Source: an uncultured Gemmatimonadales bacterium
GTDB lineage: Bacteria; Gemmatimonadota; Gemmatimonadetes; JACCXV01; JAHWKZ01
Length of the DNA stretch: 57,477 nucleotides
NCBI GenBank assembly: GCA_947259315.1
Contig: CAMYLR010000026.1
Span: 1-57,477 of the forward strand
Direction of reading: 5' to 3'
This document shows, piece by piece, positions 22,181-44,166 of this stretch. How positions within the stretch are numbered: position 1 is the first letter of the stretch; each line of letters starts with the position of its first letter. The translations under genes were made by a program, and so were the position numbers. The notes under the pieces were generated by a model. The model worked only from the letters and a program-made list of their open reading frames with translations, did no database searches and was not told the DNA's origin.

Positions 22181-22183
22181 TGC

Positions 22184-22212
22184 TTGACGAATGACGCCAT
22201 TTGGCAGAAACT
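22184..22212 (+). promoter_or_regulatory. Candidate preT promoter, leaderless geometry
   Basis: -35 TTGACG (22184-22189), 17-base spacer, -10 GAAACT (22207-22212; poor first base), then seven bases to the ATG at 22220. The geometry matches the grpE and rhodanese promoters. Confidence 0.5.
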
Positions 22213-22219
22213 GACCACC

Positions 22220-23533
22220 ATGGCCTTGGCCGCGGACCGCCTCGAGACCCTGCTCCCGGACCACAAACCGGCGTTGACCACCGCTCAGGCGAGGGCTGAA
22301 GCCGGACGCTGTCTCTTCTGCCATGATGCTCCTTGCATCGCGGCTTGTCCGACCGGAATCGACATCCCGCTGTTCATTAAACAGATCCATTCCAACAACG
22401 TCCTCGGCGCCGCACGAACGATCCTCGAGGCGAATGCGCTTGGGCACTCATGCGCGCGCGTGTGCCCGGTCGAAGTCCTGTGCGTGGGGGATTGCGTCTA
22501 CAATGTTAAAGGCGAGCCACCGATCATGATCGGCCGGCTTCAACGGTATGCCACGGATCCGGCCGTGCACGGTGGCATTCAGTTCTTTGAGGCCGGTTCG
22601 TCCACCGGTCGGTCGGTGGCGTGCGTCGGCGGGGGACCGGCATCGATCGCTTGTGCGCACGAGCTCGTCCGCATGGGGCACCGAGCGGTTGTATACGAGC
22701 GCAATCCGTGGCGCGGCGGGCTCAATACGGACGGCGTGGCGCCCTACAAGATGCAGGCGGAGGAAAGTCTGAAGGAGGTCGAGTACCTCTCGGCGATCGG
22801 GATCGAGTGGCGCTTGGATACGGCGGTCGGAGATGACGTGACGTGGGATGATCTCGAAGCCGAGTACGATGCGGTGTTTCTCGGCTTGGGTCTTGGTACC
22901 GACTCCGGGCTTGGCATCCCAGGTGAAGACCTTCCCGGGGTATGGGGCGCCACCCGCCTCATTCGGGCGATCAAGACCGGCGCCGGCTCGTTGCCCGATC
23001 CGGCGAGCCTGGGAGCGGCGGTAGTGGTCGGTGGCGGCAACACCGCCATCGATGCGGCTCGTGAGTTGTCATTGCTCGGTGTACCCGAGGTCATGGTCGC
23101 CTATCGCCGCGACCAGGATGCGATGCCGGCTTACTTGCACGAGCGCGGACACGCGGTCGAGGAGGGTGTGCGATTCGTCTTCCGGACACTGCCGCTGAGC
23201 TTCGAAGGCGATCGACGTGTCGAAGCGGTACGCCTGACGGCTCTCGATCACGACCTGGAGCCCACAGGCGAGCCCTACACCGTACCGGCGGACATAGTCG
23301 CCCTGGCGATCGGCCAGGCCCGTTTGATCGACTTGCTGGATCAGGTTGACAAACTCGACCACGACTGGGGCCGGGTGATCGTAGATCCCGATACTGGCCA
23401 GACGTCGAACCCCAAGTACTGGGCTGGTGGCGATCTCGCCAACGGTGGAGAAGAGGTCGTAAACGCGGCCGCTGAGGGGAAGCGCGCCGCATACGGGATC
23501 GATGGTTGGCTGCGGGAGAACGGAGGCAGATGA
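22220..23533 (+). CDS. preT: NAD(P)-dependent dihydropyrimidine dehydrogenase subunit PreT
   Basis: Electron-input subunit of bacterial dihydropyrimidine dehydrogenase, which reduces uracil or thymine to the 5,6-dihydro form. 437 residues. The N-terminal Fe-S part has Cys31, 34, 39 and 43 (CLFCHDAPCIAACPTGIDIP) and a second Cys group (CARVCPVEVLCVGDC). An FAD fold follows (VGGGPASIACAHEL, ~135), then an NAD(P) fold (VVGGGNTAIDAARELSLLG, ~275) and a GltD-type C-terminus (GGDLANGGEEVVNAAAEG). ATG 22220 was chosen over an upstream ATG (22151) because the extra residues are not family-like and a leaderless promoter fits. The stop overlaps preA. Confidence 0.9.
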   Translation: MALAADRLETLLPDHKPALTTAQARAEAGRCLFCHDAPCIAACPTGIDIPLFIKQIHSNNVLGAARTILEANALGHSCARVCPVEVLCVGDCVYNVKGEPPIMIGRLQRYATDPAVHGGIQFFEAGSSTGRSVACVGGGPASIACAHELVRMGHRAVVYERNPWRGGLNTDGVAPYKMQAEESLKEVEYLSAIGIEWRLDTAVGDDVTWDDLEAEYDAVFLGLGLGTDSGLGIPGEDLPGVWGATRLIRAIKTGAGSLPDPASLGAAVVVGGGNTAIDAARELSLLGVPEVMVAYRRDQDAMPAYLHERGHAVEEGVRFVFRTLPLSFEGDRRVEAVRLTALDHDLEPTGEPYTVPADIVALAIGQARLIDLLDQVDKLDHDWGRVIVDPDTGQTSNPKYWAGGDLANGGEEVVNAAAEGKRAAYGIDGWLRENGGR

Positions 23534-24825
23534 TGATTCAGAGGAATGGCCGCACTGGCGAGCCGATCGATCTATCGATCGATTGCGCCGGGATCCGCTC
23601 GCCTAACCCGTTCTGGCTCGCCAGCGGACCACCGGCCAACAGTTCGGGGCAAGTAATGAGGGCGTTCGACATGGGTTGGGGCGGTGCGGTCTGGAAGACG
23701 CTCGGGGATCCGATCACGAACACGGCGTCTCGGTACGGCGCGATCCCGTACCAGGGTCGAAACGTGGCGGGATTGAACAATATCGAGCTGATTACTGATC
23801 GCCCGCTCGAGGTGAATCTCAAAGAGATCGCAGAGGTCAAGAAGAAGTACCCGAATCACGCGGTCGTCGTATCGCTGATGGTGGAAACCAAAGACGAGTG
23901 GCGAGACATCATTAAGCGCTGCGAGGACACCGGGTGTGACGGATTTGAGCTCAACTTTGGTTGCCCCCACGGGATGTGTGAGCGCGGCATGGGTTCGGCC
24001 GTGGGGCAGGAGCCCAAAGTGCTCGAGGAGATCGCCGGTTGGGTGATGGAATTCGCGTCGATTCCGGTGCTGGTAAAGCTGACGCCTAACATCACCGATG
24101 TCCTGTACCCGGCCATGGCCGCGCAGCGAGGCGGTGTCGACGGTGTCTCGCTCGTCAACACGTTCAAGAGCGTTATCGGGATCGACCACGACACGCTTAG
24201 CCCGATCCCGTCCGTCGGCGGAGAGGGAACGTCGGGTGGCTATTGCGGTCCGGCCATCAAGCCAATCGCTCTCCATATGGTAACGCGACTCGGAAAGGCG
24301 CCCGAGTTCCATCTGCCGATCTCGGGGGTCGGAGGCGTTCAGTCTTGGGAGGACGCACTCGACTTCCTGCTTCTTGGCGCGTCATCGATCCAGGTCTGCA
24401 CCGCGGCGATGCACTACGGCTTCAAGATTGTCGACGATATGATCTTGGGGCTCGAAGAGTGGATGCGCGAGAAGGGGTATTCGAGGATCGACGAGTTCGT
24501 CGGTAAGGCACTCCCGAACTACAAGGAGTGGGGCGACCTTAACCTGAACTTCAAGATCGTCGCGGAGATCGATCCCGGGACGTGCATCGAGTGCCAGCTG
24601 TGTTACGCGGCATGCGAGGACGGCGCCCATCAGTGCATCGAGCTGCCGAAGGGAACGCGTGTGCCACGAGTGATCGAAGAAGAGTGCGTCGGGTGCAACC
24701 TGTGTCAGATCGTTTGCCCCGTTGAAGGGTGTATCACGATGGTAGAGCGAGATACGGGTCTGCCGCGCGAGTCTTGGAACGAAAGGGTCGCGAAGGGGAC
24801 CGCCGGCGCGGGCTCTCTGCACTGA
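23530..24825 (+). CDS. preA: NAD-dependent dihydropyrimidine dehydrogenase subunit PreA
   Basis: Catalytic subunit: FMN-bound dihydroorotate-dehydrogenase-like barrel plus a C-terminal pair of [4Fe-4S] clusters. 431 residues. Landmarks are NPFWLASGPPANS (~26), ELNFGCPHGMCERGMGS (~140), KLTPNITD, GGYCGPAIKPIAL and the two CxxCxxCxxxC motifs (CIECQLCYAAC, CVGCNLCQIVC, ~357-400). In human DPD a catalytic Cys lies in the loop following this CPHGM motif; here that place reads Val158 (SAVGQ), by my recollection of the alignment. ATG 23530 (ATGATG) has GGAGG nearby and overlaps the preT stop. Confidence 0.92.
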   Translation: MMIQRNGRTGEPIDLSIDCAGIRSPNPFWLASGPPANSSGQVMRAFDMGWGGAVWKTLGDPITNTASRYGAIPYQGRNVAGLNNIELITDRPLEVNLKEIAEVKKKYPNHAVVVSLMVETKDEWRDIIKRCEDTGCDGFELNFGCPHGMCERGMGSAVGQEPKVLEEIAGWVMEFASIPVLVKLTPNITDVLYPAMAAQRGGVDGVSLVNTFKSVIGIDHDTLSPIPSVGGEGTSGGYCGPAIKPIALHMVTRLGKAPEFHLPISGVGGVQSWEDALDFLLLGASSIQVCTAAMHYGFKIVDDMILGLEEWMREKGYSRIDEFVGKALPNYKEWGDLNLNFKIVAEIDPGTCIECQLCYAACEDGAHQCIELPKGTRVPRVIEEECVGCNLCQIVCPVEGCITMVERDTGLPRESWNERVAKGTAGAGSLH

Positions 24826-25289: not shown

Positions 25290-26312
25290 CTACGGGGTGA
25301 CCACCCAGCGAATCCCCTCGCCTTTGCGCATGCGATCAAAGCCGTCGTTGATCTCTGACAGCGGAACTGTACCGCTCACGATCGGATCGAGTTTTAGCCG
25401 CCCCGCGCGCACGAGATCGATGATCTCTGGGTAAAGACTGCCCCCGCAGCCCAGGCTACCGACGACCTCCAGCTCGTAAAACATGATCTTGGCCGCCGAG
25501 AGCGGGACGTCTTTGTGCGAGAAACCGATTACGCAAAGTCGACCGCCCCGACGCAGGAGATCAAAACCGAGCCGCATGGTGTCGGGTGTTCCGATCGCTT
25601 CAAAGGCGACATCGACTCCGCCGCCGGTCGCCTTCTTCACGTGTTTGTCGACGCGTTCCACACGATCGGGGTTGATCGTTTCCGCAGCGCCAAGAGTGCG
25701 CGCCAGTTCGAGTCGCTCATCGCTCAGGTCCACGGCGATCACATGCCCGCCAGCGAGCACCGCACACTGGACGACGTTCAGCCCGACGCCGCCGCAGCCG
25801 ACGACGGCTACCGTGTCACCGGGCCGCACCCGGCCACGATCCTTGACCGCATGATACGGTGTCGACACCGCATCCGCGATCACGCAAACGTGCTCCAACG
25901 AAAGCTCGTCAGGAACGGCGACGAGGTCGCTCGCCGGCAGCGCGATTCGCTCGGCGTACGCACCGTCGATGTGATTCCCCAGCATGACCATGCGGTCGCA
26001 GAGGCTTTCTCGTCCCTGACGACAGTACGAACACCGCCCACATGACAAGACCGCTGGGATCAAGACCCGGTCTCCGACCGCGAATTCAGTGACGTCTTCG
26101 CCTACGCCTGCAATCGTGCCGGCCGGTTCGTGGCCGAGAATGATCGGCGGCGACTTGAACGTTTTGACACCGTGATCGAGGTAATGGAGATCGGTGTGGC
26201 ACATGCCACAGCCAGCGACATCGACCAGCACCTCGCCCGAACCCGGTGATGGGTCGGGCACCTCGGTGATCTCGAGCGGCTGACCCGCTTTGTGGAAGAC
26301 GGCTGCCTTCAC
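25290..26312 (-). CDS. had: 6-hydroxycyclohex-1-ene-1-carbonyl-CoA dehydrogenase-like Zn-dependent alcohol dehydrogenase
   Basis: Medium-chain, zinc-dependent alcohol dehydrogenase, 340 residues. Catalytic zinc ligands are Cys in GCGMCHTDL and GHE in LGHEPAG. The structural zinc loop is present (CGRCSYCRQGRESLC). The NAD fold has VVGCGGVGLNVVQ. By sequence alone it could act on many alcohols. As the last gene of an operon with dch, oah and benzoyl-CoA reductase it fits Had, which oxidises 6-hydroxycyclohex-1-ene-1-carbonyl-CoA to the 6-oxo compound. It starts five bases after the small Cys protein. Confidence 0.75.
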   Translation of the reverse strand: MKAAVFHKAGQPLEITEVPDPSPGSGEVLVDVAGCGMCHTDLHYLDHGVKTFKSPPIILGHEPAGTIAGVGEDVTEFAVGDRVLIPAVLSCGRCSYCRQGRESLCDRMVMLGNHIDGAYAERIALPASDLVAVPDELSLEHVCVIADAVSTPYHAVKDRGRVRPGDTVAVVGCGGVGLNVVQCAVLAGGHVIAVDLSDERLELARTLGAAETINPDRVERVDKHVKKATGGGVDVAFEAIGTPDTMRLGFDLLRRGGRLCVIGFSHKDVPLSAAKIMFYELEVVGSLGCGGSLYPEIIDLVRAGRLKLDPIVSGTVPLSEINDGFDRMRKGEGIRWVVTP

Positions 26313-26317
26313 TTAGA

Positions 26318-26653
26318 TCACGGCTCCTTTCGGCGCTTGTCGCGCGTGTAGATCGTCACGAACTGACTCTCGGCAACGACCGCACAACCCTGGCAGTCGT
26401 CGAGCAGCTCTTCTGGCCTCACCGGGTCGGCACATACCTCGTACCCGAGCTCGCGGTAGAGCTCCAGCATTTCTTTGCTCCGAGCAGCATCGGTGATGAA
26501 TCGCCGCTCCCAGCCGGCGGCGATACGCTCCGGATCGGGCTCCAACTGAGCCTCGGACAGCATTCGGCGGGCCTCTCGTTCTACCAGCATCGATAGAGGC
26601 TTGATCGCGTCTTGCTGCTTGCCGGTAGTGCGGTCGGGGTTTGGATCGGACAT
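26318..26653 (-). CDS. Small cysteine-containing protein of the benzoyl-CoA operon
   Basis: 111 residues, no recognised domain. The N-terminal half is charged and helical (SMLVEREARRMLSEAQL). A helix RSKEMLELYRELGYEV follows, then a conserved-looking cysteine patch CADPVRPEELLDDCQGC and a strand AVVAESQFVTIYTR. The C...CxxC arrangement could bind metal or take part in electron transfer. It lies 11 bases after bzdQ and five before had, so it is certainly read with them. The role is unknown; an accessory function for the reductase is my inference from location. Confidence 0.65.
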   Translation of the reverse strand: MSDPNPDRTTGKQQDAIKPLSMLVEREARRMLSEAQLEPDPERIAAGWERRFITDAARSKEMLELYRELGYEVCADPVRPEELLDDCQGCAVVAESQFVTIYTRDKRRKEP

Positions 26654-26664
26654 CGTTGGTGCCT

Positions 26665-27498
26665 CTAGCTACCGGTCGCCTGGTACTCAGTCCCAGCGCC
26701 GGACGCGGCGAGTTTCTTGAGCCGCCGTTGGCCGAGCAACGCCGCGCCAAACGCGGATGTGAACTGCACGAGATCACCGGGCGGGACGTTCACGTCCGCG
26801 CCGAGCTTCTCGCTGATGACGTCGACCATGCGCCGGAAACGCAGTATGCCTCCGATCAGTGTGAACTCGGGCTCCATACGCACCCGCTTCATGAGCTGGA
26901 GTGACCTGTCGACCAGTGAAACGACAGCACCGTGCATGATATCCGCCGGGTCCATCCCCTCGGACAAGTGATTGATGACCTCCGATTCGGCAAAAACCGC
27001 GCACACGCCGGAGATCGGTACCGGCGTCTTGGATGTCTCCACTAATGGACCGATCTCCTGCGTTTCGTAGCCCATGTAACGGGCGGTTTTCTCCAAGAAA
27101 GCACCGGTTCCGGCGGCGCACTTGTCGTTCAAGCGGAACGACTTGACCTTCGCGCCGTCGCTCAAACGCGTGGCCTTCATCGTCTGGCCGCCGACATCGA
27201 GGATCGTCTGGGTTTCTGGGAACAGGAACGAGGCGCCTCGCGCAGCGGCCGTCAGGTCGGTCACATGGACGTCGCTGATTTGGGCCTGATGGCGTCCGAA
27301 CCCGGTCGCGATCACGTACGAAACGTCGGCCTTCTCGAGCCCCGCCTGATCGATGCTCTTCTCGTAAGCTCGCTCGGCGATCTCGGTGAGCTTGAATCCG
27401 GTTGGTTCCATCACGCGACCGACGATCTCGTTTACATCGTTCAAGATGACAGCCTTGGTGTACGTCGATCCGATATCGATGCCCGCCGTGTAGATCAT
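26665..27498 (-). CDS. bzdQ: Class I benzoyl-CoA reductase, ATPase subunit (BzdQ-like)
   Basis: 277-residue ASKHA-fold ATPase of the BcrA/BzdQ type. It couples ATP hydrolysis to low-potential electron transfer into the reductase. Phosphate-binding [13 protein letters not shown] (residues 6-18) and DVGGQTMKA (101-109) are visible. Cys127 (NDKCAAGTG) and Cys166 ([10 protein letters not shown]) are the two cysteines expected to bridge one [4Fe-4S] cluster with the partner subunit. Its ATG overlaps the bzdP stop. The short length, equal to its partner, matches Azoarcus-type BzdPQ better than the Thauera pair, where one subunit is longer. 2-hydroxyacyl-CoA dehydratase activators share this fold, but the neighbours decide the call. 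Confidence 0.82.
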
Positions 27499-28313
27499 GA
27501 CGTGTGCTCCATCGAGCTCGCAGGTGCTCGACTAGCCAAGATGTGATCGAGCGCGAAAAGCGCGGCCCCCATAGCTCCCATGAAATGCGACTCTTCGCTC
27601 ACGTTCACCGCGACACCCAACCTTTCGTTGAGCGTCTCGATCATCGCCACGTTGCGCGCCACCCCACCGGTAAATGTCACTTCGCTCTCGACCCCGACCC
27701 GACGCAGCAAGCCAGCCGAGCGCGCTCCGATCGACTCATGTACGCCTAGCAAGATGTCCTCGATCTTCTTGCCCTTTCCAAGCCACGAGAGGATCTCGGA
27801 CTCGGCGAACACGGTACACGTGGTGCTGATCTTCACCGCGCGTTGTCCGCGCAGCGCGGTGGGGCCCAGCTCGTCAAGCGGGATGTCGAGCGCAGCCGAG
27901 GCGGCGCCCAGAAACCGTCCGGTGCCGGCGGCGCATTTGTCGTTCATGCAGAAGTCCAGGATCTCGCCGGTCTCAGAGACCCGGATCGCCTTGGTATCCT
28001 GTCCTCCCATGTCAACGACGGTGCGAGTGCCCGGGAACATGTGAACCGCACCCCGGCCGTGGCAGCTGATTTCAGTCACTTGTGTGTTTCCAAACGTCAC
28101 CTTGTAGCGACCGTACCCCGTGCCAACGATGAACCCCACTTCCTCCTCGAGAAGGTCTGCATCGCGGAGCGCTTCCTGAAACGCGGTTTCGGCTGCTCGT
28201 GTGACGTTGGCGCCGGTATCCATCAGCGAGCGGCCGACGATGCGCCCAGCCTCGTCTATGATCACAGCCTTCGTCTGCGTGGAACCGACGTCAACTCCTG
28301 CTGCGTATGCCAT
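27495..28313 (-). CDS. bzdP: Class I benzoyl-CoA reductase, ATPase subunit (BzdP-like)
   Basis: 272 residues; forms the ATPase heterodimer with the next subunit. [13 protein letters not shown] (6-18), the DMGGQDTKA loop (101-109), Cys127 (NDKCAAGTG) and Cys166 ([10 protein letters not shown]) fall at the same positions as in BzdQ, showing an old duplication. It follows bzdO by eight bases. An extra Cys (FCMNDKC) precedes the cluster ligand. Confidence 0.82.
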
Positions 28314-28321
28314 CCAACCCT

Positions 28322-29641
28322 CTATTCTGGTTGAAGGGTTTCGCCCCGCTCGATGGACGCTCGCTTCTTGCGCGTCGCCAGGCCTTCAAAGAAGGCATCG
28401 ATCCGGTTCTTGAGCTGGGCCTCGGATACGACGCGTCGATCCATCATGTCCGATTCCAAAAACAGACTTGCCGTGTCCCGGCTTTCCATAAGCGCGCGCC
28501 GGTTGTCGGCCAGTCCCGTTGAGACCGTTCGGCAACTCTTGATCGGGTGGAATACGACCCCGTCTGCCTGGTAATCGTCGATCATCTCGCTCAGAACGAG
28601 GTCTTGGAAGAACATGCTGTCCATCGCGTTGCGGACGCTGATCAGCACCCCCTCCGCCAGACTGTCCAGTGGCCGCTCGAGGTCGTATTGGAAGCCGAGG
28701 TTCGAACCGCCGGACGCAAACCACAAATAGGTCGAATTGACGAACGTTCCACCCCACTCGGTGAACAGCTCGTTGAATCGCCGGAAGATCGGGTAACAAG
28801 GCACGCCCACAAACAGCAGTCGGTACTGTTCATCCGATAGCGTTCCGATTCCATTGGCGGCCTTGTACTCCATCTCCTCGGCCAGATCCGTGAAGTAGGT
28901 GGCGCCGGCCTCCGAACCGCGGAACCCGTTGGCGACACCGAGGTAGATCGTGCCTTCGGTGAGTGCGTTGAAAACGGCTGGGCAGGTCTGATTGAGCTCC
29001 AGGATGCGCTTCCACGATCGGTTCATCGTGTTGGCGTGACCCATCGTCTCGCGCAGTCGGTCGATGTCGAACGGGATTCCGGTCTGTTCCTCGCAGACGG
29101 TGATCAGCTCCTGGATCTGGTCGGCGACGTACCGGCGATCGTTCTCGAAGTCAGGGTCGCCCGGCCACGTCTGACCGCCGGCCGCCCGGGTGCCTGGGAT
29201 GTCCAGCGTGAAAACACGGGTGTCGTGCATTCGCTCCCAGATCTCGGCCCACTTGATGTAGGTGTTGCAGGCGTTGGTGCAAATCGCGATGGCAGGCTTG
29301 GGGATGCGTCCCATCGGATGTTCACCGCCGCGGAGTTGCACCGCGACGTCGGCTTTGACGTACCCGCAGATGTCGGGCGAGTAACCGTAGTCTTCGGCCT
29401 CGCTCAGGTACTCGTGGGCGACGCGCCGAACCGCTGTTTGAAGGGAGTTGATCTCGGGGAAGACGATCGGGAGATCAAACACTCTAAGCAGCTCCGTCAG
29501 GCTACCCATCACGAAGACATAAGCGGCGCCGGCGTCGTTCTCTGCAACCTGTCCCAGCTCTTCGAACCACTGGCGAAAGAGTTGCGCGCCATCTTGATTG
29601 CCGCGTCCTACGAGCGAGGTGTCGGTGGCCATCTGGGACAT
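28322..29641 (-). CDS. bzdO: Class I benzoyl-CoA reductase, substrate-reducing subunit (BzdO/BcrB-like)
   Basis: 439 residues of the HgdB/BcrB family. With BzdN it holds the Fe-S clusters and binds benzoyl-CoA for dearomatisation to cyclohexa-1,5-diene-1-carbonyl-CoA. Cys92 ([12 protein letters not shown]), Cys121 and Cys125 ([13 protein letters not shown]), a Cys in [11 protein letters not shown] and [13 protein letters not shown] match expected cluster or substrate regions. The length fits BzdO/BcrB (~440). Twelve bases separate it from bzdN. Starts at Met1 or Met4 are both possible. Confidence 0.85.
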
Positions 29642-29653
29642 GATGATCCTCGG

Positions 29654-30835
29654 TTAGTCGAAGAGGAGGTTCTCTAGAAAGGTCTCGAGTTGGATCTCCA
29701 GGCTGTCAAAACTCGTCATGCTCTCCTCGAACTCGCTTACGAAGTACGGAATGTTCTCCTGATCCAGTGTCCGTATGTATGCGACCTGCTCCTCGAGGCC
29801 GGGTTCGCACATCTTGGCGGCCAGCACGATCGCCGCCTCGGCCTTCGCATCCTTGATGCGTCGCAACAACATCTTTTCCTTGGGTTTTCGCAGGTCATGC
29901 TGAACCGGGCTGTGGGAAGATTTCTCGATGTAGCAATCGGCCAGGCTCAACAGCGGATTGCCGTTCACAGGGACATCTTCGGTTAGCCACCGCAGGCCGA
30001 TTAGCAGATCATCGTCAACGACGTAGCATGATCTGCTGATCGTGCGGACCAGATCGATCGGTAGCTGTTCGCAGAATCCACCCTCTACGACGACCCGGAT
30101 GCGATCTCGGGGCTGGGCTTCGCGCTCCTCGATGAGCGGCAGCAATTTGTGTAGCAACGCATTGTGTTCTTCTCGCGGCAAGAGCCCACCCAGCGCGACG
30201 AGGACATAGGCTTCGTCTGCGGACAATAACCATGGCCGTTCGCGCTTCACCGCGTACAACGCCCGCAACAGCGCTCTGTTCTCGTTGAACACTTCGATCG
30301 AACGACACAGATCGTCGTCGGTGATCTCTCTGCCAGCGATGGCTTCGATCTCTCGCATGAGCCGGTCGTATTCCGCGCGCAGGTAGTCGACAGCATGGTT
30401 TGAATTGGCGTTCTGAGGGAGATAGAGAATCTGGCACGGGTACTCGAAGTTGCGGCCCCAGATCCCAGCCAGATTTCTGGCTGCGTCACAGATCGGATGG
30501 GTGACGAACATGTCGAGCTCGATGCGTTGACTCAGCGCCAACTCGAGCGAGGTTTTGATGATCGAGCACAAGTAGGAGCCAAACCGCGAGTCCGCCTGCG
30601 TCGGCTCGACCGGCGCGCCTCGCACCTTGAAGGGCAGCATTCCGGCGGCGTGGGCGATCTCCTCTGGGAAGTAAACCTGAAAGTGACCGATCACTTTTCC
30701 ACCGTTGTCACGCCACTTGTGCACGGTCGGAAAATCGGTGTCCTCGAGTAACTCCTCGCACGATCGCAGAATCTCTTCTAGAGGTTTGTCGTTCCAGTTC
30801 GGGAGCACCTTTGGCAGCACTTGTGAGCTCGTCAT
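29654..30835 (-). CDS. bzdN: Class I benzoyl-CoA reductase, substrate-reducing subunit (BzdN/BcrC-like)
   Basis: 393 residues; the smaller HgdB-type partner of BzdO. Cys90 (GSYLCSII), Cys116 ([10 protein letters not shown]), and cysteines in [14 protein letters not shown] and [12 protein letters not shown] are typical of BcrC/BzdN. The ATG at 30835 overlaps the dch stop as ATGA, which fixes the start; a GTG 12 bases upstream is ignored. Order N-O-P-Q is identical to the Azoarcus-type bzd operon as I know it. Confidence 0.84.
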
Positions 30836-31596
30836 CGGTGGCTCCACGTGGGCTGGCGCTTCTCTTGAAACGCGCGCAGGCCTTCGATCGCGTCGGCTGT
30901 ATTCATGAGCTCCTCGACGTAGATAGCTCCCACGTCGCGGAACGCCGCCGCGCGGCGCTGCGTGCTGCCGTTCCGAAGGGCGCGCTTGGTGATCTCGAGT
31001 GCGGCTCGACTGTGTTGCGCGATCCGCTGCGCGGTGGCTGTGGCTTCATCCTCGAGCTCGCTGGGGGGCACGATCTTTCGGATTAGACCGTGCTCCAGGG
31101 CCTCGACCGCTTCGATCACGGCTCCCGACAGCACCAGGTCCGCGGCCAACCCGGAGTCGCAACGCTCGGGCAGCAGGACACACGCCGCTGGCGGGAAGAC
31201 GCCGAGCACGATTTCCGGTTGTCCGAACGACGCGTCCTCGGCGGCGATGACGATGTCGGCTGCTTGCACGACCTCGAAGCCCCCGCCTAGGCACTTGCCC
31301 TGAACCGCGGCCACGGTCGGGAGCGGGAACCCGTCGATGGCGGCGACCGTTTCGAGAAACTCGGGAATCATCTGGCGATAGAGCGGCGGTAAGTGCTCGC
31401 CAACGTCCGCACCGGCAGAGAAGTGCTTGCCGTGAGCTGACACGAGCAGCACCCGTACCGCCGAATTCGCTTCGAAGTCTCTAATTGCTGCGCGCACTTC
31501 GGCGAGCATGTCCTGAGTCAAGATGTTGAGCGGCGGATGGTTCAAGACGAGCCGGCCAAGACCGCCGTTGACACGGGTCTCGATGGTGGCAGCCAT
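30832..31596 (-). CDS. dch: Cyclohexa-1,5-diene-1-carbonyl-CoA hydratase (Dch/BzdW-like)
   Basis: 254-residue crotonase-family enzyme that adds water to the dienoyl-CoA made by the reductase. The oxyanion-hole segments are present: [13 protein letters not shown] (~53-65) and [11 protein letters not shown] (~103-113). Length agrees with known dienoyl-CoA hydratases (~257). The start ATG 31596 overlaps the oah stop by one base, so the long upstream extension of the open frame is not coding. Crotonase alone is a broad family; the operon gives the specific call. Confidence 0.78.
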
Positions 31597-32678
31597 CACG
31601 CGGGTGCTCCGGTCTTTGAGAGCGCATTCCCGCAGACACCGCAGAACTCGTGCTCCGACGGGAGGTCCTTCGAGCCGCAAGCGTCGCACGTCCCGAGCGG
31701 CGGTCCCCACAGAGTCTCCGACGGACGGCCCTCGGCCGCCCGGCTGCGCAGGAGGTCGTAGCGAGAATCGCGCTTCTCGACAAAAGCGCGCATCCCCTCC
31801 AACGGCTCCCATGAGGCGTAGTGCAGCGCCAACCAATCCTGGGCGTGGCGGACGGTCGAGTGCCACGCGAGGTCCTTCCAGAAGTTGACCTGTTGTTTCG
31901 TATAGCGAGTGCACTCGGGGAACGACGCGAGGAGCTTCTTGGCTATCTCGTCTACGAAAGCGTCGAGTTTGCTCAGGTCGATCGCGTACCCGTCCTCGCC
32001 GCGTTGAGCTTTCTTGATTTCGCCCGGGCCCGCCTCGTCGATCCACTCGTCACCATGGCGCACGGACGGCACGACCCAGTTGACGAGACCCCAGTCACGC
32101 GCTTTCAAGGCTGGGATCGGTTCGTTCAGCATCAAGATCTCACGCGCGCGCTTATCACCGACCGTCAGCGGCAACCACTGCGTGGAACCCCCGCACGCCA
32201 CCGAGCCGACGTGCGTGCCTACTTGCTTGATAAACGTGTGTTGAGCCATGACCGTCAGGTCGCACGCGAGTTGACTCTCGTTGCCGCCACCGACGGCCAT
32301 CCCGTTGAGCCTCGCCACAACCGGCTTGCCGGTGTTGAGGATGCTCTCGATGTAGGCTCGGAAAAGCGCCATGTACTTCCAGTAGTCACGCGGCGTCGCG
32401 ATGTAGCTGGCGGCGTACTCCTTGACGTCGCCACCGGTGCAGAAAGCGCGATCGCCGGCGCCGGTATAGACGATGACGCCGACGCGATCATCGAAGCTGG
32501 CGTCCCGAAAGGCGGTCGCGATTTCCTCGAGCGTCAGCGTCGAGTACGCGTTGTAGTTCTTGGGCCGGTTTATCGTGATGCGCGCGATTCCGTCGTGTTT
32601 GCTGTACTCGGTTTCCTCGAAAGCGAACGAGTCGCTCTCGCGGGGCGAGAAGTGTCGTTTTACTTCTGTGGCTTGCAT
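31596..32678 (-). CDS. oah: 6-oxocyclohex-1-ene-1-carbonyl-CoA hydrolase (Oah/BzdY-like) with a C-terminal zinc ribbon
   Basis: Ring-opening hydrolase of the crotonase family; yields 3-hydroxypimelyl-CoA. 360 residues, longer than ordinary crotonases and close to Oah/BamA (~375). NRPKNYNAYSTLTLEEI (~38), GDRAFCTGGDVKEY (~74) and NGMAVGGGNESQLACDL (~123) are the active-site parts. After residue ~330 comes a CDACG...FCGVCG cysteine ribbon that can bind zinc. The ATG overlaps the end of tetR by 19 bases, so the two are translated together. Confidence 0.82.
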   Translation of the reverse strand: MQATEVKRHFSPRESDSFAFEETEYSKHDGIARITINRPKNYNAYSTLTLEEIATAFRDASFDDRVGVIVYTGAGDRAFCTGGDVKEYAASYIATPRDYWKYMALFRAYIESILNTGKPVVARLNGMAVGGGNESQLACDLTVMAQHTFIKQVGTHVGSVACGGSTQWLPLTVGDKRAREILMLNEPIPALKARDWGLVNWVVPSVRHGDEWIDEAGPGEIKKAQRGEDGYAIDLSKLDAFVDEIAKKLLASFPECTRYTKQQVNFWKDLAWHSTVRHAQDWLALHYASWEPLEGMRAFVEKRDSRYDLLRSRAAEGRPSETLWGPPLGTCDACGSKDLPSEHEFCGVCGNALSKTGAPA

Positions 32679-33319
32679 GTGAGGCCTCCCACCAGCAGGT
32701 CCGCGAACTCAGCTCCAAGCTCGGGCGTATGAACCCGGCCCTCCGGCCGGTACCAACGAGCGATCCAGTTGATCGCTCCGAGGATCCCGAACACGGCGAT
32801 TTTGGAGTTGACGACGCGGAACTCCCCGCTCTTGATGCCTTCGTTAATGATTCTGCGAATTCGTCGCTCGTACCGGTCACGAGCGGCGATGATCTTCTTC
32901 TGTCGCTCGGATGAAAGTGCGGTCACCTCGAACGCCAGCGGGGACGCCTCGAGGGTCTCGGTCATGACGCGAACGTGCTCGCGGATGATGTAGGCGAGTC
33001 GGTCGGCCGCGGTCGCATATCGCTGCCGCGCCTCTTTCGAAAAGCGCTCGACCTCGGCCAGCGAGTCGAGATGGCATTGGTAGAGGATCGATTCCTTGTC
33101 AGGGAAGTAGTGGTAGAGCGCCGTCTTCTGAACCCCCAGATGGTTGGCGATGTCGTCTAGCGTGGTGGCGTGATAGCCCTCTTCGCGGAACGCTCGGAGT
33201 GCGGCGTGGAGAATCTCCGTTCGGCGGCGATGCCGCTTCTCTCGGATGCGGGGCGACGGCGTGGGTGCGGTGCCGGTCGTGGGCACGCTGCGACCTTCCT
33301 GTAAAATTCTACTAGACAT
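32660..33319 (-). CDS. TetR-family regulator of the benzoyl-CoA operon
   Basis: 219 residues. The N-terminal HTH spans ~33-80 (TEILHAALRAFREEGYHATTLDDIANHLGVQ in pieces, then TALYHYFPDKESIL), followed by an all-helical ligand domain (TetR_C type). It is first in the operon and its promoter carries two palindromes, so it probably represses its own transcription and that of oah-dch-bzdNOPQ-had. An acyl-CoA such as benzoyl-CoA is a reasonable inducer (inference). Known bzd operons use the unrelated XRE-type BzdR, so this is a different control arrangement. Confidence 0.85.
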   Translation of the reverse strand: MSSRILQEGRSVPTTGTAPTPSPRIREKRHRRRTEILHAALRAFREEGYHATTLDDIANHLGVQKTALYHYFPDKESILYQCHLDSLAEVERFSKEARQRYATAADRLAYIIREHVRVMTETLEASPLAFEVTALSSERQKKIIAARDRYERRIRRIINEGIKSGEFRVVNSKIAVFGILGAINWIARWYRPEGRVHTPELGAEFADLLVGGLTCKPQK

Positions 33320-33331
33320 TCAAATTTTGAA
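33319..33331. promoter_or_regulatory. Operator-like palindrome 1 (TTCAAATTTTGAA)
   Basis: Thirteen-base inverted repeat TTCAAA-T-TTTGAA, perfect around its central base and covering the -10 region of the operon promoter. Its centre is 19 bases from that of palindrome 2, close to two helical turns. Confidence 0.6.
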
Positions 33332-33352
33332 CGATACGTCAAATTTTGTCAA
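33324..33352 (-). promoter_or_regulatory. Promoter of the tetR-oah-dch-bzdNOPQ-had operon
   Basis: Read on the minus strand: -35 TTGACA (33352-33347), exactly 17 bases, -10 CAAAAT (33329-33324). The tetR ATG follows four bases after the -10, so the true start may be further in or the -10 may be misplaced. The box is overlaid by two operator-like palindromes. Confidence 0.55.
33338..33350. promoter_or_regulatory. Operator-like palindrome 2 (GTCAAATTTTGTC)
   Basis: Thirteen bases sharing the CAAATTTTG core with palindrome 1 and overlapping the -35 box. Only the core is symmetric; the outer GT/TC are not complementary. A paired site fits cooperative TetR binding. Confidence 0.55.
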
Positions 33353-33479: not shown

Positions 33480-35243
33480 ATGGATCGCGCGACCCTGGCC
33501 GCCTCGCCCTATGCCAACGACGACCTGATCCCGACGACGCTCGACGAGCGGCGCTGGTCGCGCTGGAACATCGCTGCGCTGTGGATCGGGATGAGCGCCT
33601 GTGTCCCGACGTACATGCTGGGCTCGAGCCTGATCGCGAGCGGGATGACGTGGTGGCAGGCGCTGCTCACGATCGCCGCGGGCAATGCGGTCGTGCTCGT
33701 GCCGATGATCCTCAACGGCCACGCCGGGACGAAGTACGGCGTGCCGTTTCCGGTGCTCTTGCGAGCGCCTTTCGGCATCCTCGGGGCCAACGTCCCAGCC
33801 CTGCTTCGAGGGTTGGTCGCGTGTGGCTGGTTTGGCATCCAGACATGGATCGGTGGCCACGCACTGTACGCGCTGACCCGTGTCATCGTGCCGGCTATTG
33901 GCGATGCGCCAGCGATCGGCTGGCTGGGTCTCAATGTTTGGGAGCTGCTTGCCTTCCTTGCGTTCTGGGCGCTCAACGTGTGGATCGCTTGGTCGGGAAC
34001 CGAGCGCATCAAGTGGCTCGAGGCGTGGGGAGCACCGATGCTGTTGGCGATCGGGCTGGCGCTGTTGGCGTGGACGTTCACCTCACCCGGTGGACTGGGG
34101 AGCGCACTGTCGTTTAGCCGCCAGTTTTCACAACCGTCGTTGGTCGTCACGGACCGTGAGGTGCGGCTGACAAGCCTGGCGGACGATGACGAGCCACGAG
34201 CGAGCGAATTCCGAATGGCTGCAGCCGCCTCCGAGGACGAAGCGCGCGAAGCGGTTTCGCAGGCTGATTGGATGGTCTACACCGGAGAAAAGATGGCGCT
34301 CACCCCTGGCGCCTCTGGTGGCGTCGTGGCGGCACAGCTCCGGGACGCCGACGGCGTGGTGAGCCCGACGCTGACCGGTCAGGCCACTCCTGGAGGGAAC
34401 CGGCTGGGGTTCTGGCTCCTGTTCCTGCCTGGCCTGACCGCGATGGTCGGCTTCTGGGCGACCTTGTCGCTCAACATTCCCGATTTCACGCGCTACGCCA
34501 GGAGCCAAACCGACCAGGCGTGGGGTCAAATCCTCGGGTTGCCGACCACCATGACGCTGTTCGCGTTTATCGGCATCGCCGCCACGTGCGCAGCTGCGCT
34601 GCAGTTCAGCGATGTCCTGGTAGTCGAAGCGGCTCCGTGGGACCCGGTTGTCCTGCTGTCTCGTTTCGAAGCGCCCGTCGTAGTGATCGTGTCGATGGCC
34701 GCGCTGGCGATCGCGACATTGACGACCAACATCGCCGCCAACGTCGTCGCTCCGGCGATCGGGTTCAGCAACATCGCGCCGCGGTGGATCTCGTTCCGGG
34801 TCGGTGCGCTCATCACCGGGGTGATCGGGATCCTGATAATGCCGTGGAAGCTGATCGCCTCGACACAGGGGTACATCTTCACCTGGCTGATCGGGTACAG
34901 CGCGTTGCTCGGTCCGGTGGCCGGCATCATGATCGCCGACTACTGGCTTGTGCGTCGCCAGCGCCTGGACACCGAATCGTTGTTCTCGGAAGAAGGGATG
35001 TACTGGTATGGCGACGGTTGGCGCTGGACGACAGTGGCGATCCTGGCGCTCGCGGTAGCACCCAACGTGCCCGGTTTCCTGGCCGCCGCCGGCTGGATAT
35101 CGGCGGACAAGATCCCGCCGATCTTCCATTCGATCTACACCTATGCCTGGTTTGTCGGCTTCGGGGTCGCATTCGTGAGCTACGTTGGGCTCGGTTCCTC
35201 TGAGCGGCCCACTCTCGCAGCGGAGAAGGCGAATGGTGCTTGA
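33480..35243 (+). CDS. NCS1-family transporter (nucleobase/hydantoin type) with a large hydrophilic insertion
   Basis: 587 residues; 12-helix permease for uracil, hydantoin, allantoin or similar. Family stretches include WNIAALWIGMSACVPTYMLGSS (start of helix 1, in two pieces), GIQTWIGGHALY, VGFWATLSLNIPDFTRYARSQ, and NIAANVVAPAIGFSNIAP. Between helices 6 and 7 (residues ~220-305) lies an acidic insertion of ~85 residues that ordinary members lack. Start ATG 33480. The gene diverges from tetR across 160 bases and begins the second block of pyrimidine genes; the next gene overlaps it by 11 bases. Confidence 0.88.
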   Translation: MDRATLAASPYANDDLIPTTLDERRWSRWNIAALWIGMSACVPTYMLGSSLIASGMTWWQALLTIAAGNAVVLVPMILNGHAGTKYGVPFPVLLRAPFGILGANVPALLRGLVACGWFGIQTWIGGHALYALTRVIVPAIGDAPAIGWLGLNVWELLAFLAFWALNVWIAWSGTERIKWLEAWGAPMLLAIGLALLAWTFTSPGGLGSALSFSRQFSQPSLVVTDREVRLTSLADDDEPRASEFRMAAAASEDEAREAVSQADWMVYTGEKMALTPGASGGVVAAQLRDADGVVSPTLTGQATPGGNRLGFWLLFLPGLTAMVGFWATLSLNIPDFTRYARSQTDQAWGQILGLPTTMTLFAFIGIAATCAAALQFSDVLVVEAAPWDPVVLLSRFEAPVVVIVSMAALAIATLTTNIAANVVAPAIGFSNIAPRWISFRVGALITGVIGILIMPWKLIASTQGYIFTWLIGYSALLGPVAGIMIADYWLVRRQRLDTESLFSEEGMYWYGDGWRWTTVAILALAVAPNVPGFLAAAGWISADKIPPIFHSIYTYAWFVGFGVAFVSYVGLGSSERPTLAAEKANGA

Positions 35244-36423
35244 AGGCGTTCGAGTTGTGGATCTGACCCGCATTCTGGCGGGGCCCTACGCGACGATGAT
35301 TCTGGGGGACTTTGGCGCTGACATCGTCAAGATCGAGCGCCCCGACGGCGGCGACGAAACGCGCGGATGGGGTCCACCTTGGGTCGCCGGCGCGGGCGGT
35401 GCGAGCGCCTACTTCACCGCCGTCAACCGCAATAAACGGAGCTGCACGCTCGACCTGAAGAGCGATGGAGGCAAACGTGTTCTGTGGCGCATGCTCGAGC
35501 GCGCCGACGTCGTCATCTCAAACTTCCGCCCAGGTGTGCTCGACCGACTCGGTTTCCCGTACGATGCAGTCCGCGAACAGAATCCTGGGATCGTCTACGC
35601 CGTCATCAACGGGTATGGAGCGGAGGGTCCCGGCGCCGACAAACCGTCGTTTGACGTGATCGTGCAGGGCGAGTCGGGCGTTATGGACGTCACCGGTGAC
35701 CCGGCGGGTCCGCCGACTCGGGTCGGAATCTCGCTCGGTGACGAAACCGCGGGACTGCTCGTCGTCCAGGGGATCTTGGCGGCGCTGCTCGAGCGCGCCC
35801 GAACCGGGGAAGGGCAACACGTCGAGGTCGCTCTTCACGACGGATTGCTGTCGCTGTTGACGTATCACGCGCAGAACTGGTGGTCGGGCGGTGAAAAGCC
35901 GGTACGGCTTGGCAACGCTCACCCGTCGATCGTTCCGTACCAGACTTTCGGGGCCAGCGACGGATGGATCAACATCGGCGCCGGAAACGAGCGCCAGTGG
36001 GCGCGGCTGTGCAAGGTGATTGGCAAGCCCGAGTGGGTCGATGACCCGCGCTATGCTACCAACGGTCAACGCAACGTTCACCGAGACGAGCTCATCCCGA
36101 AGCTGGAGTCGATCTTCGGTTCCCGATCGACTGCGGAGTGGGTCGCAGCTCTGTCGGAGGCCGACATCCCGTGCGGCGAAATCCGGACCGTGCCCGCCGC
36201 GCTCGATTCGCCCGAGGCCAAAGCCCGCGAGATGATCGTCGAGGTTTCCGGCTCGGACGGTGAGCCGCTCCCTCTCGTCGGTGTGCCGATCAAGCTGTCG
36301 GCGTCGCCTTGCCAGGTGCGAACCCGCCCCCCCGATCTCGGTGAGCACACCGATGAGGTGCTGACCGAGCTCGGTTACGATGCCGACGAGATCGAGGCGC
36401 TACGACAAGACGGAGCTGTCTGA
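35233..36423 (+). CDS. CaiB/BaiF family III CoA-transferase
   Basis: 396 residues. Hallmarks: GVRVVDLTRILAGPYATM at the start, LGDFGADIVKIERP, and the catalytic Asp in KPSFDVIVQGESG (~138). It moves CoA between carboxylates. The substrate is not readable; malonate or methylmalonate from pyrimidine breakdown would make sense in this place, and an aromatic acid from the adjacent benzoyl-CoA operon is an alternative. ATG 35233 overlaps the transporter gene. The 3' end overlaps the convergent cyclase gene by 24 bases. Confidence 0.87.
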   Translation: MVLEGVRVVDLTRILAGPYATMILGDFGADIVKIERPDGGDETRGWGPPWVAGAGGASAYFTAVNRNKRSCTLDLKSDGGKRVLWRMLERADVVISNFRPGVLDRLGFPYDAVREQNPGIVYAVINGYGAEGPGADKPSFDVIVQGESGVMDVTGDPAGPPTRVGISLGDETAGLLVVQGILAALLERARTGEGQHVEVALHDGLLSLLTYHAQNWWSGGEKPVRLGNAHPSIVPYQTFGASDGWINIGAGNERQWARLCKVIGKPEWVDDPRYATNGQRNVHRDELIPKLESIFGSRSTAEWVAALSEADIPCGEIRTVPAALDSPEAKAREMIVEVSGSDGEPLPLVGVPIKLSASPCQVRTRPPDLGEHTDEVLTELGYDADEIEALRQDGAV

Positions 36424-37512
36424 CGCGCTGATCCCCCTAGGCGGGACGTTCGTGATCGTACCGGCATCAGTATTGTGCTCGATCGCGAAGAGTGCGATCG
36501 ATTCCCGCTTACCACGTAGTCGGACGTCACCGATGGCGGTGGCTTTCAGCTCTCCGGGGAGCTTCAGCCTGTCTAGGACCCACTGCGAGGCGAGGCAGTC
36601 AGCGCCCGTCTCCTTGCACAACGCTTCGATCCGAGAGGCAGCGTTGAGCGCGTCACCGTGGAACGTCAACTCTTTCTTGGCTTCACCGACCCATGTGGTA
36701 ACCACGTCACCACCATGGACTCCGCCGCGCAGTCGCGGCACTACTCCATATCGCTTCAAGTACTTGTCCGTCCGAGCTTCGAGCATCCCCACCATCTCGA
36801 AAAAGCATCGCAGGCAGGCGGCATCCTGGAAGCCGCGATCCTGACGCCACGTCACGATCACCCCGTCGCCTACGAACTGATATACGTCACCTCCCCAGGC
36901 CAGGATGGCTTCCGACGTGTCACCCAAGAACTCCCGCACGAGGCTGCTGTACGCTAGGTTGCCGAGCCGTTCCGCCAAGGCCGTTGATCCAACCATGTCA
37001 GCGAAGAGAAACAGCCTGACTTCCTCCTCGGGGTATCGATAGCGACCCGTGAGAAACCGCCATATCTCCCCGCGGTTGTGAAGGGTACGGATCTCCAAAG
37101 CGCTGGTCAGTACAACCGCCGTGACGAAGGCCATCATGAAATCGCGGGTGAGACGATCGTCGAAGAGGTACCGCCCAGCGCCTTCAAGGAGCCCGACCCG
37201 CGAACCAATGGCGATAGCGATGCCGTTGACTAGCACCAGAGCTAAGAGCATCACCGCGCTGTACAGCAGCACACGGAGAGCGTTCAGCGTGAAGAACCTG
37301 AACCTGCGGCTCCCCAGGGGGAGCAGAAACTGCTCGGTCACGCCCACTGCAACACCGATCAGGAGACCCACGAAGAGCCCTCGAATACTGCTCCAGAGCA
37401 GTATTCGTTGGTCGATCTGGCCGATGAGGAGACCGAGAAGGGAACCGCCCAGCATTCCGACCACCGCGAAGGTGACGACCGTCCGAACGCGCTTTCGTTG
37501 AACTGCGTTCAC
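36400..37512 (-). CDS. Membrane-bound class III adenylate/guanylate cyclase
   Basis: 370 residues. Four helices in the first ~150 residues (VVTFAVVGMLGGSLLGLLIG, SIRGLFVGLLIGVAVGV, VLLYSAVMLLALVLVNGIAI, DFMMAFVTAVVLTSAL) anchor a cytosolic cyclase domain. Metal-binding aspartates are in FADMVGSTALAE and GDVYQFVGDGVIVTW; the transition-state Asn/Arg pair is in GDALNAASRIE. This suggests an active homodimer producing cAMP (or cGMP). It is on the opposite strand to the surrounding pyrimidine genes and is probably separately controlled. Confidence 0.87.
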   Translation of the reverse strand: MNAVQRKRVRTVVTFAVVGMLGGSLLGLLIGQIDQRILLWSSIRGLFVGLLIGVAVGVTEQFLLPLGSRRFRFFTLNALRVLLYSAVMLLALVLVNGIAIAIGSRVGLLEGAGRYLFDDRLTRDFMMAFVTAVVLTSALEIRTLHNRGEIWRFLTGRYRYPEEEVRLFLFADMVGSTALAERLGNLAYSSLVREFLGDTSEAILAWGGDVYQFVGDGVIVTWRQDRGFQDAACLRCFFEMVGMLEARTDKYLKRYGVVPRLRGGVHGGDVVTTWVGEAKKELTFHGDALNAASRIEALCKETGADCLASQWVLDRLKLPGELKATAIGDVRLRGKRESIALFAIEHNTDAGTITNVPPRGISASDSSVLS

Positions 37513-37691
37513 CGAAGCAGGTCCTCCTTTCTGACCGAGAAGCTGAAACTAAGTGGTGCCTGGGCGCATGAAAGTGCCGGACGCGCTCCGCGTTCAGCGT
37601 GCCCGCCCGCCAACGCCGTCGGTCGCACGACGCGCAGGCGTCAGCTATGATTAAAGGCATACAACCGGCACGATACCCGCATGGAGGCATC

Positions 37692-38567
37692 ATGGCGAGA
37701 GTGGTGAAGGGTGGTCTGATCCAGGCGGCGATCCCTGACGGGGATGCCAGCCGACCGATCGACGAGATCAGACAATCGATGATCGACAAACACGTGGTCC
37801 TGCTGGCCGAGGCCGCCGAGCGGGGTGCGCAGGTCGTCTGTCTACAGGAGCTCTTCTATGGGCCGTACTTCTGCGCCGATCAGGACGCGAAGTGGTATCA
37901 GCTCACCGAACAGGTCCCTGACGGGCCGACGTGCCGACAGTTCGGAGACTTGGCACGCGAGCACGGTGTGGTACTTGTGCTCCCGGTCTATGAAGAGGAG
38001 ATCGCTGGGGTCTATTACAACACCGCGGCGGTGTATGACGCCGACGGGTCGTACTTGGGCAAGTACCGCAAACACCATATTCCGCACTGCGCGCCCGGAT
38101 TCTGGGAGAAGTTTTTCTTCAAGCCAGGGAACCTCGGATACCCGGTGTTCGAGACCGCATTCGGAAACGTCGGGGTGTACATCTGCTACGATCGCCACTT
38201 TCCCGAGGGCGCGCGGATCCTCGGTTTGAACGGTGCGGAGATCGTCTTCAACCCATCGGCTACGGTGGCCGGGCTCTCGGAGTACCTGTGGGAGCTCGAG
38301 CAGCCGGCCCACGCGGTGGCGAACGGCTACTTCATCGGCGCGATCAACCGCGTCGGCCACGAGAACCCCTGGGACATCGGTGAGTTCTATGGCAAGTCGT
38401 ACTTCGCCGATCCGCGCGGGGAGATCATCGCTCAGGCGCCGCGCGACCGTGACGCGGTGGTCGTCGCTGACCTCGACCTCGACATGATCGAGGAAGTCCG
38501 TCAGACGTGGCAGTTTTTCCGGGATCGGCGACCTGAAACGTACGACGAGATCGCCGCGCTGCTGTGA
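37692..38567 (+). CDS. pydC: Beta-ureidopropionase (N-carbamoyl-beta-alanine amidohydrolase)
   Basis: Nitrilase-superfamily hydrolase, third step of reductive pyrimidine breakdown: N-carbamoyl-beta-alanine to beta-alanine, CO2 and ammonia. 291 residues with the catalytic triad Glu53 (LQELF), Lys127 (YRKHHIPH) and Cys165 (YICYDRHFPEGAR). The segment HCAPGFWEKFFFKPG is typical of this subgroup. ATG 37692 has GGAGG just upstream. A TATGAT box at 37646-37651 may belong to its promoter, but the -35 is poor. Confidence 0.9.
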   Translation: MARVVKGGLIQAAIPDGDASRPIDEIRQSMIDKHVVLLAEAAERGAQVVCLQELFYGPYFCADQDAKWYQLTEQVPDGPTCRQFGDLAREHGVVLVLPVYEEEIAGVYYNTAAVYDADGSYLGKYRKHHIPHCAPGFWEKFFFKPGNLGYPVFETAFGNVGVYICYDRHFPEGARILGLNGAEIVFNPSATVAGLSEYLWELEQPAHAVANGYFIGAINRVGHENPWDIGEFYGKSYFADPRGEIIAQAPRDRDAVVVADLDLDMIEEVRQTWQFFRDRRPETYDEIAALL

Positions 38568-38592
38568 CGATCGTCGACGAAAGCGAGCAGAG

Positions 38593-39915
38593 ATGACGGA
38601 TCCGAACAACGGCGGATCGATCGCGACCGCCAACCGGGCAGCCGAGATCAACGCTGGCCACGATCGCTATCTGTGGGACGCGGTCATGCGCTACTACGAA
38701 ACGCCGCTGCCGCTGGCTCGTGGGCGCGGCCAGCACTTGTACGACTACGACGGCAACGAGTATCTCGATTTCTTTGGCGGGATCTTGACCGTCCCGGTTG
38801 GGCACTGTCACCCCACCGTGACGCAGGCGATCCAGCAGCAGGCGGAAACGCTCGTTCATACGTCGACCCTCTACCCGACCGGGCCGATCGTAGAGCTGGC
38901 GGAGAAGATCGCTTCGCTCACCCCTGGGGATCTGTCCAAGACGTTCTTCACCAACAGCGGCACCGAGGCCGACGAGACGGCGATCATGCTGGCCAAGGCG
39001 GCGACCGGCAATCAAGCCGTGATCGCGCTGCGCCACGCCTACGCGGGGCGCTCGATGTTGGCGGTAACGCTGACCGCGCACGCGCCTTGGCGCAGCGTCG
39101 ACTACATCTCCGGCATCAAGCACGCGCTGGCCCCCTACTGCTATCGCTGTCCGCTCAAGCTCGAATACCCGTCGTGCGGGGTAGCGTGCGCCGAGGATCT
39201 GGAGGAGCTGATCAAGACCACCACGCCGGGGCGGGTCGCGTGCATGATCGCTGAGCCGATCATGGGTGTCGGTGGCTTTGTCACGCCGCCCACGGAGTAC
39301 TTTCAGATCGCGGCCGAGATCGTGCGCCGCCACGAAGGGCTGCTGATCGCGGACGAAGTCCAGACCGGTTGGGGCCGAACCGGCACCAAGATGTGGGGAA
39401 TCGAACAGTATGGCGTCACGCCGGACGTCATGACGATGGCTAAGGGCGTTGCCAACGGCATGCCGATGGGCGTGACCGTTACGACGCCCGACATCGCCGC
39501 CAAGTGGGAGGGCCTGACGCTGTCCACGTTTGGCGGCAACCCGCTGGCGTGCGCTGCGTCCCGTGCGACGATCCAGGTGATCGAAGAGGACAACCTGGCC
39601 GAGAACGCGGAGACTCAAGGTCGGCGGTTGCGAGACGGTTTGGAGAAGCTTCAGGAGAAGCATGCGTTGATCGGCGATGTGCGTGGCATGGGACTCATGC
39701 AGGGGATCGAGATGGTCGCTGATCGTCGGACCAAGGAACCGGCGGTGTCGGAGATCATGCAGCTCATGGAAGAGACGAAGAAACGCGGTCTCTTGATCGG
39801 CAAGGGTGGGCTCTACGGCAACGTTGTCCGGGTCGCGCCGTGTCTCAACATCGGTGCCGACGATGTTGATCGAGCGGTTGAGATCCTCGATGACAGCTTC
39901 GCGGCTATCGGGTAG
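38593..39915 (+). CDS. Class III PLP-dependent aminotransferase (AGXT2-like, beta-alanine type)
   Basis: 440 residues. It probably moves the amino group of beta-alanine (or 3-aminoisobutyrate) to glyoxylate or pyruvate, giving malonate semialdehyde. FFTNSGTEADE (PLP phosphate), LLIADEVQTGWGRTG (Asp contacting the pyridine N), and Schiff-base Lys in TMAKGVANGMPMG are all present. It lies 25 bases after pydC. Relatives include alanine-glyoxylate aminotransferase 2 and 4-aminobutyrate aminotransferase. Confidence 0.88.
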   Translation: MTDPNNGGSIATANRAAEINAGHDRYLWDAVMRYYETPLPLARGRGQHLYDYDGNEYLDFFGGILTVPVGHCHPTVTQAIQQQAETLVHTSTLYPTGPIVELAEKIASLTPGDLSKTFFTNSGTEADETAIMLAKAATGNQAVIALRHAYAGRSMLAVTLTAHAPWRSVDYISGIKHALAPYCYRCPLKLEYPSCGVACAEDLEELIKTTTPGRVACMIAEPIMGVGGFVTPPTEYFQIAAEIVRRHEGLLIADEVQTGWGRTGTKMWGIEQYGVTPDVMTMAKGVANGMPMGVTVTTPDIAAKWEGLTLSTFGGNPLACAASRATIQVIEEDNLAENAETQGRRLRDGLEKLQEKHALIGDVRGMGLMQGIEMVADRRTKEPAVSEIMQLMEETKKRGLLIGKGGLYGNVVRVAPCLNIGADDVDRAVEILDDSFAAIG

Positions 39916-44133: not shown

Positions 44134-44166
44134 GCCGATCACGGACTCTGTTGGAGGATGAATACC

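Follow-up and report, generated by a model that had tools for sequence, protein, structure and literature searches.

A predicted twin operator at the promoter of a TetR-headed benzoyl-CoA operon in Gemmatimonadota

The repressors BzdR and BoxR, which control benzoyl-CoA operons in Azoarcus, are XRE-family proteins released by benzoyl-CoA (PMC4424350). In Azoarcus sp. CIB, the 3-methylbenzoyl-CoA operon is controlled by the TetR repressor MbdR, which has ATAC-N10-GTAT operators over its promoters and is released by that aroyl-CoA (PMC4424350). MbdR is thus already known as a TetR-type aroyl-CoA sensor, which gives a functional precedent for the TetR described here. For PfmR (TTHB023) from Thermus thermophilus, a selection-derived operator consensus is available: (a/c)Y(g/t)A(A/C)YGryCR(g/t)T(c/a)R(g/t) (PMC7022988). 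Our literature search found no paper describing the present regulator in Gemmatimonadota. DesT, considered as a geometric parallel, was set aside after the same search found no confirming paper.

The window, i.e., the whole stretch of 57,477 nucleotides that was analysed, is a contig of a genome of 2.4 Mb. Among named genomes, the one most closely related is a metagenome-assembled genome from Gemmatimonadota (L042), in which TetR is 96% identical. The tetR gene heads an operon for the benzoyl-CoA pathway (Table 1). A first-pass annotation, made from the sequence alone, had spoken of a tetR-bzd promoter; the promoter is there, but the bzd label does not hold. When the reductase subunits were compared with the bzdNOPQ models, these were not the best matches, since the C subunit scored 257 bits with the bcrC model versus 96 bits with bzdN, and the B subunit 195 bits with the Bcr model versus 90 with the Bzd model. 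All reductase subunits in the window score below the curated equivalog cut-offs, so "bcr-like operon promoter" is the better name. The oah and had genes reach 211/464 and 257/339 bits, respectively, against curated models. Between bcrD and had lies a small open reading frame (26313-26777) that has no NCBIfam match, is 55% identical in the sister genome versus ~90% for the flanking genes, and may not be a gene. The bcr-like operon is nested in an apparent reductive pyrimidine degradation cluster on the plus strand (22151-24825, 33480-39915 and 44158-45546), which comprises preT/preA-like genes, an NCS1 transporter, a carbamoyl amidase, an aminotransferase and a D-hydantoinase, and whose gene order is the same in the sister genome over the part that its contig covers. 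The NCS1 transporter (33480-35243) is unusually long (~587 aa from ATG 33480), with an apparent hydrophilic insert between its two profile-matched halves.

Table 1. Positions of the predicted regulatory elements and of the operon genes in the window
Feature	Position	Strand	Remarks
-35 hexamer TTGACA	33347..33352	-	TTGAC 7-9 bp upstream of O1 in 20/36 orthologous promoters
-10 hexamer CAAAAT	33324..33329	-	A-rich hexamer at the 17-bp position in orthologous promoters having the -35
Predicted operator O1, TTTGACGTATCGTTCAAA	33326..33343	-	covers promoter spacer, overlaps -10
Predicted operator O2, TTTGAATGTCTAGTAGAA	33307..33324	-	from -10 edge across predicted transcription start; centre 19 bp from O1
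Box 1, TTCAAATTTTGAA	33319..33331		right half of O1, 1 bp and left half of O2
Box 2, GTCAAATTTTGTC	33338..33350		outer O1 half-site running into -35 hexamer
tetR, TetR-family repressor (TetR_N + TetR_C_24)	32660..33286	-	first operon gene; predicted start GTG 33286
oah-like, 6-oxocyclohex-1-ene-1-carbonyl-CoA hydratase	31596..32678	-	divergent sequence, below cut-off
dch-like, cyclohexa-1,5-dienecarbonyl-CoA hydratase	30832..31600	-	start approximate
bcrC, bcrB, bcrA, bcrD-like, class I benzoyl-CoA reductase subunits	26665..30847	-	closer to Bcr than Bzd models
had-like, 6-hydroxycyclohex-1-ene-1-carbonyl-CoA dehydrogenase	25290..26312	-	below cut-off

The TetR protein matches PF00440 (HTH, 63.2 bits) and PF17932 (TetR_C_24, 111.2 bits), both above cut-off, and its structure model is all-helical (pLDDT 87.5), with TetR-family proteins as the best-ranked PDB matches. 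The closest structures are PfmR (3vpr), AibR (5k7h/5k7z), KstR2 (4w97) and Bacillus FadR (3whc). PfmR is the closest solved relative by both sequence profile and fold (~35% identity), is likewise the first gene of its own operon and has two promoters that carry two sites. However, PfmR controls fatty-acid/phenylacetate-type genes at several promoters, whereas a single benzoyl-CoA operon is concerned here, and homology alone therefore does not point to benzoyl-CoA. MbdR (4uds) shares with the present system a TetR repressor, an aroyl-CoA reductase operon and an 18-bp operator over the promoter, and the genomic context fits an MbdR-like TetR that would respond to an aroyl-CoA. It differs in being more distant (profile E 4e-15 versus 6e-40 for PfmR) and in that mbdR is transcribed apart from the catabolic operon, while here tetR is the first operon gene. 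No exact match to the MbdR operator ATAC-N10-GTAT was found in the window; the best candidate at the promoter has two mismatches, and 79 such sites were seen versus 78 expected, i.e., chance level. BzdR and BoxR belong to a fold unrelated to TetR, and instead of an XRE-type HTH fused to a shikimate-kinase-like domain, as in BzdR, the Pfam matches in our protein are TetR domains only. AibR, KstR2 and FadR are acyl-CoA-responsive TetR repressors among the closest folds, with other substrates and operators.

The promoter of tetR is sigma-70-like, with a TTGACA-17-CAAAAT arrangement that matches at 10/12 positions, and its -10 and -35 are overlapped by the two boxes, as the first-pass annotation had proposed. 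TTGAC occurs at the tabulated distance from O1 across the orthologous promoters with a shuffle chance of 0.008. The gene very probably starts at GTG 33286, and ATG 33319 is very probably not the start, because the ATG position reads ACT in the sister genome, the place of the GTG is where several orthologs begin, and the GTG is preceded by a ribosome-binding site, AGGAAGG. Both boxes were indeed found where they had been reported, with common CAAATTTTG cores (33321-33329 and 33340-33348) exactly 19 bp apart. The suggested search for the box sequence elsewhere in the 2.4-Mb genome returned TCAAATTTTG at the two box positions only, versus one occurrence for its reversed control, and exact TTCAAAWTTTGAA was present only at this promoter. 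In the window, CAAATTTTG occurs three times versus 0.2 expected, the third copy (41877) having neither a partner at 19 bp nor a matching palindrome, and we take that copy as chance. The extent originally given to the element (33319-33352) was too short, since conservation continues to 33307.

The predicted twin operator at the tetR promoter is strongly supported by comparison across genomes. The orthologs were the ~35 closest of 79 loci on named genome contigs plus 26 class genomes, and the promoters came from Gemmatimonadota, Eisenbacteria and one record labelled Acidobacteriota. Two dyads of 18 bp, TTTGAAY-N4-RTTCAAA, recur in tandem in some 36 orthologous tetR promoters (counts unweighted for relatedness, here and below), with exactly 19 bp from centre to centre, and are embedded in an alternating array of the half-sites TTTGAAC and GTTCAAA whose offset spectrum peaks at 19 bp. 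TTTGAAC-N4-GTTCAAA (hereafter L-N4-R) was the best and commonest half-site arrangement tested, with a mean best score of 11.9/14; it reached at least 12/14 in 24 of 37 promoters, five of them perfect, and in none of the shuffles. Upstream regions of 19 unrelated tetR genes gave background scores (mean 7.4/14), with one exception at 11/14. The conservation profile displays two dyads with unconserved four-base centres, as well as conserved flanking TTT/AAA positions that are absent from the PfmR selection pattern. In sister genomes, 31 of the 34 bp of the operator core are identical, versus 92 of 159 for the remaining intergenic DNA. The same geometry, YKAMY-N4-RKTMR, has been determined biochemically for PfmR. 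Scored on ten consensus positions of the PfmR pattern (YKAMY + RKTMR, the central GryC and two end positions having been dropped by our choice), pairs at exactly 19 bp reaching at least 18/20 occur in 31/36 promoters, versus no more than 6/36 when the spacing is set to any other value between 10 and 30 bp, and 0.4% in shuffles. In the window itself, O1 scores 9/10 with this PfmR core and 12/14 with TTTGAAC-N4-GTTCAAA; O2 scores 10/10 with the core, but only 9/14 with the family consensus. O1 is the sole exact TTTGAMN5RTTCAAA in the window's genome, and the full twin-site pattern, when one mismatch is allowed, has a single occurrence in the window versus 0.03 expected. The twin sites are retained as a pair in dozens of related bacteria and are therefore almost certainly a genuine on/off switch, of a general type that is already known.

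How the half-sites combine into dimer sites can be read in more than one way. That the boxes had been taken for operators was right as regards the presence of operators at this place; as dimer sites they are probably wrong, the symmetric unit across relatives being TTTGAAY-N4-RTTCAAA. In the alternative register, the dimer site would be box 1, a palindrome GTTCAAATTTTGAAY of 13-15 bp with its centre at 33325, and box 2 would hold a second, weaker copy of it. Box 1 is identical between the window's genome and the sister genome, and its arrangement is the best-scoring one in both (13 and 14 of 14, versus 11-12/14 for either dyad); since the window's genus shows this slight advantage, the choice of register cannot be made from the sequence of one genome. 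Relatives argue against box 1, though: with PfmR half-sites its arrangement scores lower in 12/36 promoters and higher in none, and among the orthologs that retain just one good dyad (L050, L058, L062 and L070), three (L050, L058 and L070) keep the L-N4-R dyad without the box-1 arrangement. In addition, the spacing measured for PfmR is that of L-N4-R (PMC7022988), and box 2 is half -35 hexamer. We consequently regard the box register as improbable, and the model of two dyads as having a high probability on these comparisons. That the boxes are chance AT-rich repeats in a G+C-rich genome is hardly credible: AT-richness is typical of many promoters, but chance is contradicted by the uniqueness of the boxes in the genome and by conservation across genomes at a fixed spacing.

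Another reading concerns the target rather than the sites, which lie within the 193-bp intergenic region common to tetR and the divergent NCS1 transporter gene (33480 onward), so that the latter might be the main or an additional target of TetR. We find this very unlikely. Within the shared region, the operators lie close to tetR and overlie its promoter; they are kept across phyla, whereas the NCS1 neighbour is limited to the window's genus; and the transporter is part of the reductive pyrimidine cluster. Exact TTTGAMN5RTTCAAA was found in 9 of the 26 whole genomes searched, each match being at the tetR promoter (for one genome, G084, this was confirmed by reading the gene start). A regulon spread over several promoters as for PfmR was not seen in these 26 genomes, where all exact operators are at the benzoyl-CoA operon promoter, which suggests a regulator that acts locally. 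We relied on the strict pattern because a looser one with two mismatches gave ~690 matches in the window's own genome and was uninformative.

In the majority of the collected loci, a benzoyl-CoA operon begins with the TetR ortholog (58-96% identity). A close bcrC is present in 23 of 26 tetR genomes versus 47 of 394 class genomes (P ~3e-21, ignoring relatedness). In a few tetR genomes (e.g., G039 and G048), the genes headed by tetR are had and oah, and bcrC is located at another place. Another 24 bcrC genomes lack this TetR, which is therefore not obligatory. At one locus (L059:10001-20606), the operon headed by TetR and the twin operator comprises had and oah, both above cut-off, and a reductase subunit of the bzdN type; bcr-like and bzd-type systems thus have this regulator in common.

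Autorepression by TetR at its own promoter, claimed in the first-pass annotation, is well supported by conservation, synteny and the match to the operator measured for PfmR. As is usual for the TetR family, a palindromic operator lies over the gene's own promoter, judged here by sequence only. The array, its conservation, its place in the promoter, its uniqueness in the searched genomes and the linkage of the regulator to benzoyl-CoA genes were computed; what we infer is that TetR binds, that two dimers occupy the sites, that they repress, and which ligand releases them. Two TetR dimers would sit side by side on O1 and O2, sites separated by one base pair, as 19 bp correspond to ~1.8 helical turns. 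The dimer on O1 would cover the spacer together with part of the -10, abutting the -35, and that on O2 would cover the -10 edge and the transcription start, a position from which RNA polymerase would be excluded. The TetR_C_24 domain would bind a pathway acyl-CoA, aromatic or alicyclic and most probably benzoyl-CoA; the dimers would then be released, and the whole operon including tetR would be transcribed. It is very likely, in our judgement, that TetR is a locally acting autorepressor at the tetR-oah-dch-bcrCBAD-had promoter, released by benzoyl-CoA or an early acyl-CoA of the pathway.

By analogy, the ligand is likely an acyl-CoA, because the protein has a TetR_C_24 domain and its closest folds are PfmR, AibR (isovaleryl-CoA), KstR2 and FadR (stearoyl-CoA). 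The earlier suggestion of a sensor for benzoyl-CoA or a similar compound unlike BzdR is plausible, the protein being a TetR and not an XRE-family member. We lean towards benzoyl-CoA as the best inducer candidate, with other acyl-CoAs of the pathway next, because it is the element common to TetR-headed operons, whose oah/had may be divergent or canonical and whose reductase may be bcr-like or bzd-type. It is nevertheless quite possible, if somewhat short of an even chance, that with operator and repressor unchanged the inducer is a substituted benzoyl-CoA or a later intermediate, such as the dienoyl-CoA, 6-oxocyclohexenoyl-CoA or a pimeloyl-CoA-like product. Related regulators bind varied acyl-CoAs, and the window's oah and had diverge from curated models, so the substrate may differ. 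Yet operons with canonical had/oah, whether their reductase is bcr-like or bzd-type, begin with this TetR as well, and the shared early benzoyl-CoA is the simplest common signal for them.

More broadly, and tentatively, since we put it a little below an even call, TetR may represent a PfmR-related, benzoyl-CoA-sensing lineage whose dimers bind two by two, next to each other, to a twin operator of fixed 19-bp spacing, a portable cassette that heads benzoyl-CoA operons with interchangeable (bcr-like or bzd-type) reductases across Gemmatimonadota and further phyla. The present operons indicate that regulation of benzoyl-CoA degradation by a TetR recurs beyond Azoarcus. For anaerobic aromatic degradation in a largely uncultured phylum, the analysis names a predicted regulator, an exact operator sequence and an inducer that can be tested; with its defined operator, unique in the genome, the system is also a candidate benzoyl-CoA biosensor part. 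Distant TetR relatives (~30-37%; L077-L093) group in Acetobacteraceae. A survey found benzoyl-CoA pathway genes to be rare among FCB representatives, one Gemmatimonadota included (PMC10936416); in contrast to that statement, the class frequency of close bcrC given above makes it fairly common in this Gemmatimonadota class.
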